Assembly (NCBI GenBank): GCA_029866155.1
Contig: JARWZW010000013.1
Coordinates: 62,001 to 126,000, forward strand
From: Caulobacter sp.
GTDB taxonomy: Bacteria > Pseudomonadota > Alphaproteobacteria > Caulobacterales > Caulobacteraceae
Reading direction: 5' to 3'
DNA length: 64,000 nt
A program made the position numbers and the translations under genes. A model generated the notes under the pieces. The model was not told the origin of the DNA and did not search any database. It saw only the letters and a program-made list of their open reading frames with translations. Each line of letters opens with the position of its first letter. The stretch's first letter is position 1. Positions 43,628-58,748 of the stretch are shown here, piece by piece.

Positions 43628-43841
43628 CGCTTTCGTGACGATTTTTTCGTTTCCAGCGCCTGATTGCAGCCTCTTCAACTGCAAACAACATTTTTTGTTA
43701 ACCCTAAGGGCGCTGAAGTCTCTCAAGCGTGTTTGACCCGATTTGGGTTCTGATGCGCAGGCCTTGTTCAAGCCTGCGCCTGGATTCCGAGCTAGGGCCC
43801 GCACGATTCCGTCAATTGGGCGGAGCTCTGGGGAGAAGGCC

Positions 43842-45452
43842 ATGGCCGCAGACTACGATCTGGCGCAACGACTCGATTTCATGGGCCTGGATCAGGCCTC
43901 ACGTGAACGGATGAGGGCCATGCGGCCCGTGATCCGAAAGGAGATCGGCGCGGCGCTGGCCTCCTTTTATGACAAGGTCAGACAGGTCCCTGAGACCCGC
44001 GCCTTTTTCTCCAGCGAGGCCGGAATCCAGTCCGCCTCCAATCGGCAGCAAGGTCACTGGGATATCATCGCCTCGGCCGACTATGGGGAAGCCTATGTGA
44101 ATGGCGTGCGGGCGATCGGCAGGGCCCACGCCCGGCTGGGTCTGGAACCAAGGTGGTACATTGGCGGCTATGCCCTGATCTGCGATCACCTGGTCAAGGC
44201 TGTGATCAACGACGTTTTCTCAAAAGGAGCGTTCGGCTTTGCCCAGGCAGGAGCCGCTGAAAAGGCCGGAGCCGCTGTTTCAACCCTTGTCAAAGCGATG
44301 CTCCTGGACATGGATTTCGCCATCTCGATCTACATCGAGACCCTGGAGGAAGAGCGGGCGCGGCTGGAATCGGTGCGGGTTGCAGCCGAGCAGCGACAGT
44401 CGGCCGCTGTTTCGGCTCTTGGCGAGGCGCTATCGCGGCTTGCCGGAGGCGACCTGGTGTCGCGCCTGGATGCAGAGGTTTCACTTGAGTTCGAACAACT
44501 CAAGTCGGACTACAACGCTGCCATAGACTCGCTACAGGCCACGCTTCAGGCTGTTGCGGGTTCGACAGAGACCATTCGAGCGAGCACCGAGGAAATCGCC
44601 CAGGCGTCGGACGATCTGTCCCGCCGGACCGAGCAACAGGCTGCGGGCCTGGAACAGACAGCTGCGGCGCTGGATGAACTGACTGCGACCGTAAAGAAGG
44701 CTGCCAGCGGCGCTCAACAGGCCGCCGATGTTGTTACGGCCACCCGCAACGAAGCCCAGCGGTCCGGTGAGGTGGTTGAGCAGGCTGTCTCCGCCATGGG
44801 GCAGATCGAGAAATCCTCCGGCCAGATCACTCAGATTATCGGGGTGATTGATGAAATCGCGTTCCAGACCAACCTTCTGGCTCTGAACGCCGGGGTCGAG
44901 GCGGCCCGGGCCGGAGACGCCGGTCGAGGTTTCGCGGTCGTGGCGCAGGAAGTGCGCGCCCTGGCCCAGAGATCGGCGGATGCAGCCAAGGAGATCAAGG
45001 GACTGATCGGCGCCTCGACGACCCAGGTCGGCGCCGGGGTGAAGCTGGTTGGAGATACGGGTGAGGCCCTGAAGCGCATAATCCAGGGAGTTGGCAGCAT
45101 CGACTCCCTGGTGTCTGAAATGGCGGCGTCGTCCCATGAGCAGGCGACCGGCCTCAACGAGGTCAATACTGCCGTCAACCAGATGGATCAGGTCACCCAG
45201 CAAAACGCTGCAATGGTCGAGCAGGCTACGGCGGCCACCCAATCGCTCAAGGTCGAAACCAACGATCTGTCCAATATCCTGGGGCGGTTCAACCTGGGTT
45301 GGTCGTCAGCCTCTCGCGGCAGGGTGAGCGCTGTAGAGGCGGCTCCGACCCGGCCCCTTGCCGGTGGACGGCAACCAGGGTCGGTCACAACGCAGTCTCG
45401 AGGCAACCTGGCGATCGCCGCCTCGCCGTCAGTCAGTTGGGAAGAATTCTAA
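43842..45452 (+). CDS. globin-coupled sensor methyl-accepting chemotaxis protein (HemAT-like)
   Basis: N-terminal protoglobin domain ([38 protein letters not shown]) plus MCP signalling core ([53 protein letters not shown]); no TM segments. Confidence 0.96.
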
Positions 45453-52898: not shown

Positions 52899-53380
52899 CT
52901 GATGCTCGCAAATATCGGGTCAAGACGCGGCTCAACACCCTGGCGTTCGACGGCAAGGGGCTGATGGCCCGGGATGCGCTGAAACAGGCAGAAGCCGGGG
53001 TCGAGTCCATGCGGGATGTCCTTGAGGAGGCCCTGGCCGACAGCGTCCGCGAGATTGTCGAGGTCTTCGGGCCGGGCGCCCCGGACCGCGAAGGTCAGGA
53101 TCCCATGTCGCTCTATGTTTTCGGGCTGGCGGTCATAGACGCCTGCGCCATTGCACCCGAGTCTGGCCTGGACAAGGTGGCGCACAGCCTCTGCACATTG
53201 GCCGACTCGTTTGGCACCAGCGCCCGTTGGGACTGGCAAGCAGTGGATGTCCACGTCGCAACCCTGCAACTGCTCCATAGTGACCGGACGCTTTCCGCTT
53301 CGGCGCGCAACACCGTTCTGGCTGGCTTGGCAGAGGTAATCCGCCGTCGGGCCGTGGCCCAGGGCGTATCCGAGGACTGA
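52895..53380 (+). CDS. CheE-position chemotaxis protein (by order)
   Basis: 161 aa, last gene of operon; order match with C. crescentus cheE. Confidence 0.6.
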   Translation: MTDARKYRVKTRLNTLAFDGKGLMARDALKQAEAGVESMRDVLEEALADSVREIVEVFGPGAPDREGQDPMSLYVFGLAVIDACAIAPESGLDKVAHSLCTLADSFGTSARWDWQAVDVHVATLQLLHSDRTLSASARNTVLAGLAEVIRRRAVAQGVSED

Positions 53381-53547
53381 GGTTCGGCCACGTCCCCTGC
53401 GCTCTGTCACATAGATGAATGGGAGCCAACCGCACCCTCAGGGTGAGTTCAATCACGGTCGTCCAATTGTGTCCCCGGGGTGGCGCTGGGCCGCGCTGAC
53501 AGGCGCGGTGGACAAAAAGTTCCTGCGCCAGACGCAGGGGCAAAACT

Positions 53548-54678
53548 GTGAAAGTGGCAATCGTGGCCGGGACTCGTCCCGAAGTGGTCAAGCTGGCTCC
53601 GGTTAGGGCGGCCCTGGCGGCCCGCCAATCGTTCACGCCCATCTGGATATCGACCGAGCAGCAGGCTGCCCTGAACCAGCAGACCCTTGCGACCATGGGG
53701 ATCGTCCCCGATCTTTGCCTCGCCCCTCCCGGCGACGCTCAGAGCCTCGGCGGTCGCTTCGCCCATGTCATGGGCCAACTGGACCTCGCCTTCGAGACCA
53801 TATGTCCAGACCTTGTGGTGGTGCAGGGCGATACCTCCAGCACTGCTGCCGGGGCGATGGCTGCCTTCGCCCGCCGAATTCCGGTGGCCCATGTTGAAGC
53901 AGGTCTGAGGACCTTTGACCTGGCGACGCCGTTTCCCGAAGAGGGATGGCGCTGTGTGGTCGGGCAACTGGCCGAACTGCATTTTGCGCCGACCGGTGCA
54001 GCCGCAGAAAATCTGGCGCGAAACGGTGTGAACAGCTCCCGGGTCCACGTCACCGGCAATACCGGCATCGACTCCGTCAGGCTGACGGCTGCAGGCATCG
54101 CGCCAGAGGCCGCCACGCCTGGACTGCGTCGCATCCTCGTGACCCTGCACCGTCGGGAGAACTGGAACGAGGCGCTGGATGAGGTCCTGGCGGGGCTGCT
54201 GGATATCCGCGACCGGGTCAGGGATGTCGAGATCGTCTTTGTCGCCCACGCCAATCCGGCGCTCCGCAGGCGGGTTTTCGGCATGCTGGACGGCCAGGAA
54301 CGGGTCCGGATCGTCGGGCCGCTCGAATATCCGGATTTTCTGGCCCTGTTGAAGAGCAGCGACCTTGTCATGTCGGACTCGGGCGGGGTCCAGGAGGAGG
54401 CGCCTGTGTTCGGCGTTCCGGTCCTGGTCCTCCGGGACTCCACCGAGCGGATGGAGGCCGTGACAGCTGGCGTAGCCCGACTGGTGGGCGTTCAGCGCCA
54501 GTCGGTCCAGGCGGCTGCATGCCAACTTCTGGATGATGAACAGGACCGGCAGCGGATGGCTCGGGCCGTAAGCCCGTTTGGCGACGGGTACGCCTCGGAA
54601 AGAATCGTCGAGGTAATTGCCGCGCGGTTCGCGAACCTGCTTGCTAGCCGGCCCGCCGGCCTGCTGAATGCTGGTTAG
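53548..54678 (+). CDS. wecB: non-hydrolysing UDP-N-acetylglucosamine 2-epimerase
   Basis: VAIVAGTRPEVVKLAPVRAAL; VAHVEAGLRTFDLATPFPEE; SDSGGVQEEAPVFGVPVLVLRDSTERME. Confidence 0.96.
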   Translation: MKVAIVAGTRPEVVKLAPVRAALAARQSFTPIWISTEQQAALNQQTLATMGIVPDLCLAPPGDAQSLGGRFAHVMGQLDLAFETICPDLVVVQGDTSSTAAGAMAAFARRIPVAHVEAGLRTFDLATPFPEEGWRCVVGQLAELHFAPTGAAAENLARNGVNSSRVHVTGNTGIDSVRLTAAGIAPEAATPGLRRILVTLHRRENWNEALDEVLAGLLDIRDRVRDVEIVFVAHANPALRRRVFGMLDGQERVRIVGPLEYPDFLALLKSSDLVMSDSGGVQEEAPVFGVPVLVLRDSTERMEAVTAGVARLVGVQRQSVQAAACQLLDDEQDRQRMARAVSPFGDGYASERIVEVIAARFANLLASRPAGLLNAG

Positions 54679-54695
54679 CCATAAGGCGGCATGGG

Positions 54696-56999
54696 GTGGG
54701 GGTGACGGTGCAGACGATCTTGCACGACGCGGGGACCTGGTTCACCAGCGCTGGCGTCACCCCCGACTCCCTTTTTCAGGCCCTGTTGGCTTATTGGGGC
54801 TTCCTGAAGATCGCCATCATCGTGACAGCGGTGCTGATCACGATTTCTTCTATCGATGACCTGTTCATCGATCTGCTGTTCTGGTGGCGCAGCTGGGAAA
54901 AGCTTTGGGATTTCTGGGGCCGGCCACCCAAACAGGCGCTGTTGGATCGCCATCCGGAAAAGATGATCGCCTTGATGGTGCCTGCCTGGCAGGAGAGCGA
55001 CGTCATCGCGAGCATGGTGGCCAACACCAACAAGACCTTCGACTACAGCCGCTACAAGATCTTCATCGGGGTCTATGCCAACGACCCCGACACGGCCCGC
55101 GAAGTGGAGAAGATCCGCCAGCGCTTTCCCAATGTCTATCGGGCGGAGGTGCCGCACGATGGTCCGACCAGCAAGGCTGACTGCCTCAACTGGCTGGTCC
55201 AGAACATCCTGCTGCACGAGAAGCGCACCGGAGACCGTTTCGACGCCTTTCTGATGCATGACGCAGAGGATGTAGTGCACCCTTATGGCTTGAAGACCGT
55301 CAACTGGTTCATCGAGGACCGGGGGATGATCCAGATGCCGGTGCTGTCCATGGACCGCCCCTGGTACGAGCTTGTCGCGTGCCACTACATGGACGAGTTT
55401 GCGGAGTTCCATACAAAGGACCTGCCGGTCCGTTCCCAGGTTTCGGGCATGACTCCTTCGGCGGGGGTGGCTACTGCCTTTGCCCGCAGCGCCATGCTGG
55501 CTTTATGCCGGGAAAAGGATGGCCAGCCATTCAATACCGACAGTCTGACTGAAGACTACGATGTCGCGCACCGGCTGAGCGCCCTTGGCTATCCATCGGA
55601 GTTCATCCGCTATCACGCCCGGGTCCCGCGGCGTCGCAAGGCCTGGTTCCGCAAGGGCGATGTGACGGTAATGCGCCGCGAACTGGTGGCGACCAAGGAG
55701 TTCTTTCCGGACAAGTTCGTCACCAGCGTCAGGCAGAAGACCCGCTGGATGCTGGGTATTTCCTATCTGGGCTGGCAACAGCTGGGCTGGTTCGGGGATC
55801 TCGCCAATCGCTATTATCTCTTCCGGGACCGCAAGGCGCTCTTTACCTCGCCGGTCGGCGCCATCGCCTATCTGATCGTTATCCAGGTTCTGGGCTACTG
55901 GGGGGTCTCGGCCATCTGGCCGCAGATAGCCCAGCTGCCGCCCCTGATCGACCAGCCCTGGGTCTGGACCCTGGTCTTCATAAACTTCTTTTTCCTGGTG
56001 AACCGCATCCTGCATCGGGCCTGGTTCACAGGCACCAACCACGGCATCAAGCATGTCTGGCTGACGCCCGTGCGGATCGTGGTCTCAAATCTGGTCGGGT
56101 TCGGAGCCTTCGGCCGGTCACTTCGGCAGTATGTCACGCATCTGATCACCGGTCGAACCATCGCCTGGGACAAGACCCAGCACAGCTATCCCTCCCTGTC
56201 GGAGTTGCAGCAGGGCGGCGGCCGGATCGGCGATGTCCTGCGATTCTGGAACCACCTCAGCGAGGAAGACCTGGAGCGAGCGCTGGCGGCGCAGCGAAAC
56301 CGTTATCGGCCCATCGGGCTTCAACTGCTGGATCTGGGTCTGATCGAGGACGAGCATCTGGCCGAGGCCTTCGCCGAGCGGGGAGAGGTCTATGCCTCGA
56401 TGTTTGATGCCTTCCAGATCGAGCGGGACCTGCTGAAGGTTCTGACCGTCCAGCAGGCGGCCTGGTTTGGCGCCGTGCCCCTTCGGCGGCAGAATGGCGG
56501 CATCGATGTCGCCCTGTCCGAGCCGCTTCCGGCGCCGCGCCGAGCCGAACTGGAGAAGCTGCTCGGTGTGGCCGGGGTCAAGAGCGTCCGCTACCTCTAT
56601 GCGCCGCTCAGCGATATCGCCTTTGCCATCAGGTTCGCCTGGGATGATCAGGCCTTTGCTGCGTCCCGGGCTGTCCTGGCCCGCACCCGGCAGGAGGGCC
56701 GGATCAGCGCCTCGGACGAGGCCGGCCTCTGGCGCGCCATTCGCGTCAAGCACGTGCGGCTGGGCGACCTTCTGGTGCGGTCTGGCGCCCTGTCCCATGA
56801 CGACCTGCAGACGGCCCTGACCCGGGGACGTGATCTGCCGGGCAGGCTGGGCGAGCAACTGGTCGCTTCGGGCCTGGTTTCGGCAGAGGCCAGGGATGCG
56901 GCCCTGGCGCTTCAGGTTTCGGCTGCCTGGGTCGAGCTCAGGCTGTCAGAGGCGATCGCCTCCGCCTCAAAAGCTGAGCCCGCCCGATACGCCTACTGA
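54696..56999 (+). CDS. NfrB-like membrane glycosyltransferase with C-terminal MshEN-like domains
   Basis: SSIDDLFIDLLFWWR; MIALMVPAWQESDVIASMVANTNKTFDYSRYKIFIGVYANDPDT; C-terminal GRIGDVLRFWNHLSEEDLERALAAQ...PIGLQLLDLGLIEDEHLAEAFAER. Confidence 0.9.
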   Translation: MGVTVQTILHDAGTWFTSAGVTPDSLFQALLAYWGFLKIAIIVTAVLITISSIDDLFIDLLFWWRSWEKLWDFWGRPPKQALLDRHPEKMIALMVPAWQESDVIASMVANTNKTFDYSRYKIFIGVYANDPDTAREVEKIRQRFPNVYRAEVPHDGPTSKADCLNWLVQNILLHEKRTGDRFDAFLMHDAEDVVHPYGLKTVNWFIEDRGMIQMPVLSMDRPWYELVACHYMDEFAEFHTKDLPVRSQVSGMTPSAGVATAFARSAMLALCREKDGQPFNTDSLTEDYDVAHRLSALGYPSEFIRYHARVPRRRKAWFRKGDVTVMRRELVATKEFFPDKFVTSVRQKTRWMLGISYLGWQQLGWFGDLANRYYLFRDRKALFTSPVGAIAYLIVIQVLGYWGVSAIWPQIAQLPPLIDQPWVWTLVFINFFFLVNRILHRAWFTGTNHGIKHVWLTPVRIVVSNLVGFGAFGRSLRQYVTHLITGRTIAWDKTQHSYPSLSELQQGGGRIGDVLRFWNHLSEEDLERALAAQRNRYRPIGLQLLDLGLIEDEHLAEAFAERGEVYASMFDAFQIERDLLKVLTVQQAAWFGAVPLRRQNGGIDVALSEPLPAPRRAELEKLLGVAGVKSVRYLYAPLSDIAFAIRFAWDDQAFAASRAVLARTRQEGRISASDEAGLWRAIRVKHVRLGDLLVRSGALSHDDLQTALTRGRDLPGRLGEQLVASGLVSAEARDAALALQVSAAWVELRLSEAIASASKAEPARYAY

Positions 57000-58637
57000 G
57001 ACCTTCGGCCCGACGAAGGCGTCCGGAACACCGACAGTGTCGGTGACCGGAGTCGCATAGAGGATGTCCAGCGTCCAGCGACCGTCGAGGGTCATGCGAA
57101 GACCGCCGCCAGCGAACAGGCCGTGGCTGCTGTCCGGTCCCACCGTATCTTCGTTGCTGGCCCAGGCCCCTTCAACAAAGGCTGCCGGGCGGAGGGTGAT
57201 CCTGGGCCCGAGTTCTGCGGCAGGGCCATAGATATCCACCGACCCGCTGACGCCACTGTCGCCATAGAGGGCGCCGGGGTCGAGAGCGCGACCGCCGATC
57301 AGGCCGCCATAGGTGAACTCTTCATACTGGAGCAGAGGCCTGTCGGCCTTCTGGGCCCGCAGGCGTGGCTGGATGAGAAGGCCGCCGCGCAGGATGGAGG
57401 CCTGGCCTTCGAACCGCAGGACTGTCGCGGCCGGATCGGCCTGGATGCGGCTGAGCAGCGGGTCGCCTTCGACCGAGGCTCCAAGGCCATCAAGCCCCTT
57501 GCGAAGGCTAAGGAAGCCCCAGGCCGAAGCGCCTTCAGATCGATAGTCCGCCTGGACGCCGGCATAGACGACACGGAGCCGGTCGCGGGCCGTGGCAGGA
57601 CCGGTGGTCAGGTCGGTGTCCTGATTGACAGACTCCAGACCGAGGCGTCCGGCCACAAGAAGGTCGCCGGTCGGGGTCGAATACAGGCCCAGCGGATGGC
57701 GAAGCTCGAGCCTGGCCAGCCGTGTGAGGCCCTTGGTGTCGAGATTGGGGGGGCGCTCATCGGGCTTTTGCTCGAACACCGCCAGATCGCCGCGAACCTC
57801 GAGGCCCGAACTGGACAGCAGGGCCTGGCTGGAAATCTGCGCGCCGCGCTGGGCGTCCCCGGTGAGATCGTGGAACAGGCCGATGATGGTGTGCTCCCGG
57901 AGGGGCGTCAGGCCATCGAGGATCAGGCTGGCCCCGCCGCTCCAGGTCCCGACGGTGTCGGCCGAGGCGTTCTGGGCGCTCAGAAACAGGCTGGGCGGCC
58001 CGGGCGAAACGGCCAGCACCAGCACCACGCCTTCACCATCGGCGGCGGCTCGGGTGGAAGGGGCGACGCCCCAGAAGCCGAAGCGAGAGGCCGCGTCGAC
58101 CCCTCTTTTCAGATCAAGGACATTCAGGGGGCGACCGGAGCGGACATCGGCGAAGGCCCGGCGAATGAAGGCCTGGCCCGCCTCGTCGGCGCCGGTGACC
58201 TCCAGTTCCGAGACGACCCCCTCGCGCACCCGCACCCGCCAGCCGCCGTCGGTCAGCCGGACCACCTCGGCGCGGGCCGCGACATAGCCGGCCCGGGCAT
58301 AGCGGCAGTCCAGATAGGCGGCCAGCCGATCGGCGGTTCCCGCATCGGCTGGCTGGCCCAGCAGAGCGCTCCAGCCGACTGAAAGCTCGGCTGCCGACAG
58401 CCTTGTAGAGCCCTCCAGGCTGACGCCGGACAGGGCCGGGCCTGAGGCTGCCGGACTTGGCGCGGGGCAGGCGGCAGGGGCCGATTTCAGGGTGATGGCC
58501 TTCTGGGGGCTCTGGAACCGCAGGACCTCGGCCGGCGAGGGGCCCGGCGTCTGGGCCAGGGCGGCGCCTGAAATCAGACTGGCGGCCAGCATGATGGGCG
58601 CCGCAGCGACCCTGACCCTGATGTCCCGGATTTTCAA
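56967..58637 (-). CDS. ShlB/FhaC/HecB-type two-partner secretion transporter (TpsB)
   Basis: signal peptide; POTRA-like LSGVSLEGSTRLSAAEL...; conserved YGGLIGGRALDPGALYGDSGVSGS; C-terminal aromatic residue F. Confidence 0.88.
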   Translation of the reverse strand: MKIRDIRVRVAAAPIMLAASLISGAALAQTPGPSPAEVLRFQSPQKAITLKSAPAACPAPSPAASGPALSGVSLEGSTRLSAAELSVGWSALLGQPADAGTADRLAAYLDCRYARAGYVAARAEVVRLTDGGWRVRVREGVVSELEVTGADEAGQAFIRRAFADVRSGRPLNVLDLKRGVDAASRFGFWGVAPSTRAAADGEGVVLVLAVSPGPPSLFLSAQNASADTVGTWSGGASLILDGLTPLREHTIIGLFHDLTGDAQRGAQISSQALLSSSGLEVRGDLAVFEQKPDERPPNLDTKGLTRLARLELRHPLGLYSTPTGDLLVAGRLGLESVNQDTDLTTGPATARDRLRVVYAGVQADYRSEGASAWGFLSLRKGLDGLGASVEGDPLLSRIQADPAATVLRFEGQASILRGGLLIQPRLRAQKADRPLLQYEEFTYGGLIGGRALDPGALYGDSGVSGSVDIYGPAAELGPRITLRPAAFVEGAWASNEDTVGPDSSHGLFAGGGLRMTLDGRWTLDILYATPVTDTVGVPDAFVGPKVSVGVSGGLSF

Positions 58638-58748
58638 TGTACTGCCCCTGACCCTCGCCGGTTCAACCTCACCACGAGGCCCTTGCGAGGGTCAAGGCAA
58701 ACTCGTGACCCCAGCTTGAACTGGCGGTGAACGCTTGGCCTTTGCGTT

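Follow-up and report, generated by a model that had tools for sequence, protein, structure and literature searches.

The closest described relative of the locus analysed here is the WecB-NfrB-NfrA-YbcH (NGR) system of Escherichia coli, which makes the receptor glycan of phage N4 and in which linkage of wecB (nfrC) and nfrB is a published arrangement (PMC8669469); residues matching the catalytic positions of NfrB have been tested in that organism (PMC8669469). The Caulobacterales norm is that nfrA comes after nfrB, as in the wecB-nfrB-nfrA operons (e.g. G043, Brevundimonas). The Bcs cellulose synthase is likewise processive and activated by c-di-GMP, and has an exit pore in the outer membrane, the TPR-barrel BcsC. 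TpsB transporters such as FhaC, CdiB and ShlB combine two POTRA domains with an Omp85-type barrel fold, and the Omp85 proteins studied so far move or insert proteins (PMC11116518).

The locus lies in a 3.5-Mb Caulobacter genome (G000). The window, meaning the whole 64,000-nucleotide stretch of DNA that was analysed, covers positions 62001-126000 of contig C50 of this genome, and the named loci nearest to its locus are from Caulobacter species.

The wecB-nfrB pair

A first-pass annotation of this DNA had described a wecB gene followed 17 nt later by nfrB. The coordinates are correct (wecB stop at 54678, GTG start of nfrB at 54696), and both identities are backed by TIGR00236 and NF012033 scores above the cut-offs of those models (Table 1). 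Against the E. coli NfrB model NF008411 the window protein scores 565 bits, under that model's cut-off of 1170. All motifs of processive family-2 glycosyltransferases are present in NfrB, namely DxD (D189), TED (residues 285-287) and QxxRW (QKTRW, residues 347-351), and E. coli D169, D267 and W330 align with D189, D287 and W351. Because its predicted structure (AlphaFold, pLDDT 83.5) has bacterial cellulose synthase as its top Foldseek matches, BcsA ranking first, and high-scoring matches to hyaluronan and chitin synthases, NfrB is probably a processive synthase.

Table 1. Features of the wecB-nfrB-barrel locus, in window positions.
Feature	Position	Strand	Evidence
wecB (nfrC), non-hydrolysing UDP-GlcNAc 2-epimerase, 376 aa	53548..54678	+	TIGR00236 375.7 bits (equivalog cut-off 210.15); PF02350 336.6 bits
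nfrB, 767 aa, processive family-2 membrane glycosyltransferase with MshEN at its C-terminus	54696..56999	+	NF012033/PRK15489 668.5 bits (cut-off 537)
MshEN domain (predicted c-di-GMP binding), NfrB residues 509-646	56220..56633	+	PF05157 26.4 bits (Pfam cut-off 23.1); PDB PilF/MshE/PilB matches
Second MshEN-N motif pair (RLGDLL...RLGEQL), NfrB residues 688-740	56757..56915	+	NF053729; motif scan
Orphan outer-membrane barrel of TpsB type, with a signal peptide, two POTRA domains and a beta-barrel; candidate substitute for NfrA	56967..58637	-	POTRA_2/ShlB below cut-off; CdiB/FhaC matches
CTCA-N6-GTTCAA repeat, 96-111 nt before wecB	53437..53452	+	Kept upstream of wecB in 5/5 Caulobacter genomes
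GTTCA-N6-GTTCAA repeat before the barrel gene	58716..58732	-	Kept upstream of the barrel in 5/5 Caulobacter genomes

The two C-terminal MshEN-like segments noticed in the first pass proved to be one full MshEN domain, above the Pfam cut-off, and a second MshEN-N motif pair. The motif scan places the motif starts at residues 510/539 and 688/717, and two stretches of NfrB match the c-di-GMP motif model NF053729; the second pair is intact in the window protein and degenerate in E. coli NfrB. Of the MshEN residues tested in E. coli, glycine G491 is kept (G512) and both leucines are substituted (L490 by I511 and L537 by F559). By homology to E. coli, the pair is best read as a c-di-GMP-controlled, ManNAc-based polysaccharide system of the N4-receptor type (PMC8669469, PMC8669472). 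This much of the earlier interpretation stands and, since the pair has already been published as the NGR/N4-receptor system, this part is known.

NfrA and the TpsB-type barrel

Gene order was compared across 25 nfrB loci, E. coli included, and in most of them an NfrA homologue lies directly 3' of nfrB or one gene off. No NfrA homologue was found 3' of nfrB in the five orthologous Caulobacter loci or in G410, which belongs to a different genus. A search with PF13283 (NfrA_C) gave no match in G000 or in any other of the eight genomes that carry the barrel described below; the same model was positive in E. coli and in G065, a genome of the same genus with an ordinary wecB-nfrB-nfrA operon. The first-pass statement that no NfrA is visible is thus true genome-wide, but it overlooked the TpsB-type barrel convergent with nfrB, the proposed outer-membrane part of the system, which is present here instead of the NfrA of E. 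coli. The Caulobacterales wecB-nfrB-nfrA operons encode orthologous WecB and NfrB (47-70% identity for NfrB); unlike the present locus, they keep NfrA and have no barrel orthologue.

Several NfrB loci depart from the usual arrangement in other ways. Neither NfrA nor the barrel was found in the NfrB genomes L105 (a MAG) and L141 (Phenylobacterium aquaticum); in the latter, nfrB matches fall in two frames and the gene is probably frameshifted, with a convergent wecB and a DUF2334 protein (L141:7938-13043). In the Alphaproteobacteria MAG RI_492 (L110:7920-10724), a single open frame joins an NfrB glycosyltransferase that lacks MshEN to a signal-like stretch, TPRs and an NfrA barrel; this looks like a fusion of inner-membrane and outer-membrane parts, unless a stop has been lost. 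The NfrBs of L080, L081, L082 and L083 (G314, G153, G134 and G116) are about 600 aa long, match window NfrB only up to residue 509 and lack the MshEN region; there nfrB is followed by NfrA and then by a second, shorter NfrA-like gene.

In G000 the barrel gene overlaps nfrB by 33 nt. Across the five Caulobacter genomes it has 551-587 codons and runs toward nfrB, with 3' ends that overlap in four (by 33 nt in three); in G082 a gap of about 110 nt separates them. The Pfam matches of the window protein to POTRA_2 and ShlB are both under cut-off, and a barrel profile matched CdiB at 8.1e-9. A five-sequence AlphaFold model, whose confidence is modest (pLDDT 62.6), returned CdiB (3.4e-18) and FhaC (1.2e-16) in Foldseek. 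Sequence profile, model and Foldseek agree on two POTRA domains and an Omp85-type barrel, the architecture of TpsB. The eight barrels form one clade in the tree (100/99); the adjoining TpsBs sit beside TpsA-like giants, as do the more distant relatives examined. The tip of L6 reads RAL in the five Caulobacter barrels and RGL in the three others, and the RG plus aromatic motif of most local TpsBs is absent, although some TpsA-linked relatives deviate as well.

Unlike FhaC, CdiB and ShlB, the window barrel has no adjacent TpsA. No match to the TPS domain (PF05860) was found in G019, G077, G079 and G082, four of the eight barrel genomes, and the loci compared share no conserved candidate substrate gene beside the barrel. 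A giant haemagglutinin-like TpsA is encoded downstream in G000, the only one in that genome, but a different TpsB lies near it, some 23-25 kb beyond the barrel; for this reason, and because those four genomes have no TPS domain, a partnership between the barrel and the giant TpsA was rejected. On the same contig past the window are a 4142-aa TPS-domain protein (L010:7561-19989) and, separated from it by other genes, a TpsB whose neighbour is an ExbB-like protein with fused DUF2341 and laminin-G parts (L011:2754-7312), with ExbD- and TonB-like genes likely also nearby; these genes possibly form an energised two-partner system.

Co-occurrence with nfrB and the upstream repeat

With a threshold of at least 600 bits (next best score 206), barrel orthologues occur in 8 of 390 family genomes, from genera g1, g18 and g60. 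All eight encode NfrB and none encodes NfrA. Within the genus (75 genomes), six genomes are NfrB-positive and all five barrel genomes are among them (Fisher p=3.5e-7, a value that ignores shared ancestry). Two linked arrangements are seen: in the five Caulobacter genomes the barrel is convergent with nfrB and overlaps it or lies next to its 3' end, and in G410 it lies upstream of nfrB on the same strand, with 20 nt between them. In the two remaining genomes barrel and nfrB are not linked. Since the left flank of the locus has changed in G000 and the right flank in G077, the common core is wecB-nfrB-barrel. A prediction that the barrel would be present held in Caulobacter sp. 17J80-11 and 17J65-9, where nfrB stands alone without NfrA: both carry the barrel elsewhere, with no TpsA beside it.

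In the NfrB tree the barrel genomes fall into two groups around the Brevundimonas NfrA group, which indicates that the exporter type switched two or more times, or else switched once and reverted. As the five Caulobacter species may form a single clade, the number of independent events is small (about three placements), and shared ancestry limits the proof value of the barrel and NfrB counts.

The repeat TCA-N6-GTTCAA, common to wecB and the barrel gene (Table 1), also precedes the barrel and nfrB in G410. The 224 kb scanned contain 12 sites, 11 of them upstream of wecB or the barrel, against a Markov expectation of 0.8. Some NfrA-type loci (G314, G153, G134, G116 and RI_492) have the form GTTCA-N6-GTTCA ahead of nfrB or wecB. 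We regard the repeat as supportive only, because it was found post hoc, exact GTTCA-N6-GTTCA stands upstream of 7 of 273 control genes (2.6%), and it was not found upstream of nfrB and the barrel in the 17J genomes.

Proposed exporter replacement and its alternatives

The genome data favour the view that the orphan TpsB-type barrel functionally replaces NfrA. WecB would convert UDP-GlcNAc to UDP-ManNAc, and c-di-GMP bound to the MshEN domain(s) would activate NfrB, the inner-membrane processive synthase, to polymerise a ManNAc-containing glycan and push it into the periplasm. A UDP-ManNAc substrate is in keeping with the linkage of nfrB to wecB. NfrA, with its TPR domain and beta-barrel, is absent in this lineage and would have been replaced by an Omp85 barrel without a TpsA partner, whose POTRA domains would stand in for the TPR domain and whose barrel would form the exit pore. 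We infer activation by c-di-GMP, the identity of the sugar and passage of the glycan through the barrel, and judge the scheme as a whole somewhat more probable than its negation; that a TpsB barrel was converted from protein secretion to c-di-GMP-controlled polysaccharide export we rate at even chances. Compared with Bcs, the predicted c-di-GMP sensor is MshEN and not PilZ, and the proposed exit pore is of the Omp85 type and not a TPR-barrel.

The new part is the barrel in place of NfrA, just outside the segment that the first-pass annotation described. To our knowledge no Omp85 protein exports polysaccharide, and a literature search for Omp85 in polysaccharide export found no case, the Omp85 papers retrieved concerning protein transport or assembly. 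A glycan-exporting member would be a new job for the superfamily and widen its function, and would show the exporters of synthase-dependent polysaccharides to be exchangeable. For relatives of Caulobacter in which no exporter is expected from the published NfrA model, the barrel is the gene to test for surface glycan and phage sensitivity; for an N4-like Caulobacter phage, smooth LPS has been reported as the receptor (PMC12633290).

Replacement has to be set against the convergent orientation of the barrel in five genomes, where it is not co-transcribed with nfrB, and its lack of linkage in two, and also against the small number of independent events, the modest barrel model and the NfrB genomes L105 and L141, which gave no match to NfrA or the barrel. 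The orphan TpsB might still secrete a protein without a recognisable TPS domain, for instance an adhesin or glycan-modifying protein working with the NfrB polysaccharide, while the glycan exits elsewhere. Its fold and nearest relatives are indeed TpsB, the Omp85 proteins studied act in protein translocation or outer-membrane protein assembly (PMC11116518), and the co-occurrence with NfrB would be accounted for too; this reading is nevertheless rather unlikely, as four barrel genomes have no TPS-domain protein, no conserved candidate substrate gene accompanies the barrel and the absence of NfrA is left unexplained. The convergent orientation, the unlinked copies and the possible shared ancestry of the species would also suit a barrel that came along with the locus in a single lineage as a bystander, with NfrB using an unrelated exporter. 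We hold this to be improbable: the two genes are linked in two distinct arrangements and co-occur even when unlinked, no barrel without nfrB was found in the 390 genomes, the barrel is complementary to NfrA, and an upstream repeat is common to wecB and the barrel.

The first-pass annotation had placed the pair after the che operon, co-directionally, and had taken the polysaccharide to be attached to chemotaxis. The placement is accurate for G000, where cheE ends at 53380 and wecB begins 167 nt later in the same direction, but che genes are missing next to wecB in the four further Caulobacter genomes that share the locus; a 2OG-Fe(II) oxygenase gene precedes it there, with PfkB-kinase and nucleoside-hydrolase genes nearby. 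Because the che neighbourhood is special to G000 among the five genomes it cannot carry a functional claim, and conservation of the che linkage was rejected. FlhDC/FliA control nfr in E. coli, where nfr can impede motility (PMC8669469); like the co-directional placement in G000, this would favour functional coupling of the wecB-nfrB operon to chemotaxis, through co-transcription with the che operon or control by it. Given the missing adjacency elsewhere and the repeat element between cheE and wecB, such coupling is highly improbable. A sigma-70 promoter scan of the cheE-wecB interval found none, and the interval has a single terminator-like match, on the minus strand. The genes upstream of wecB match the Caulobacter che operon pattern, the last being a 161-aa gene in the cheE position, and a protoglobin-MCP chemoreceptor gene (window 43743-45452) heads this operon.
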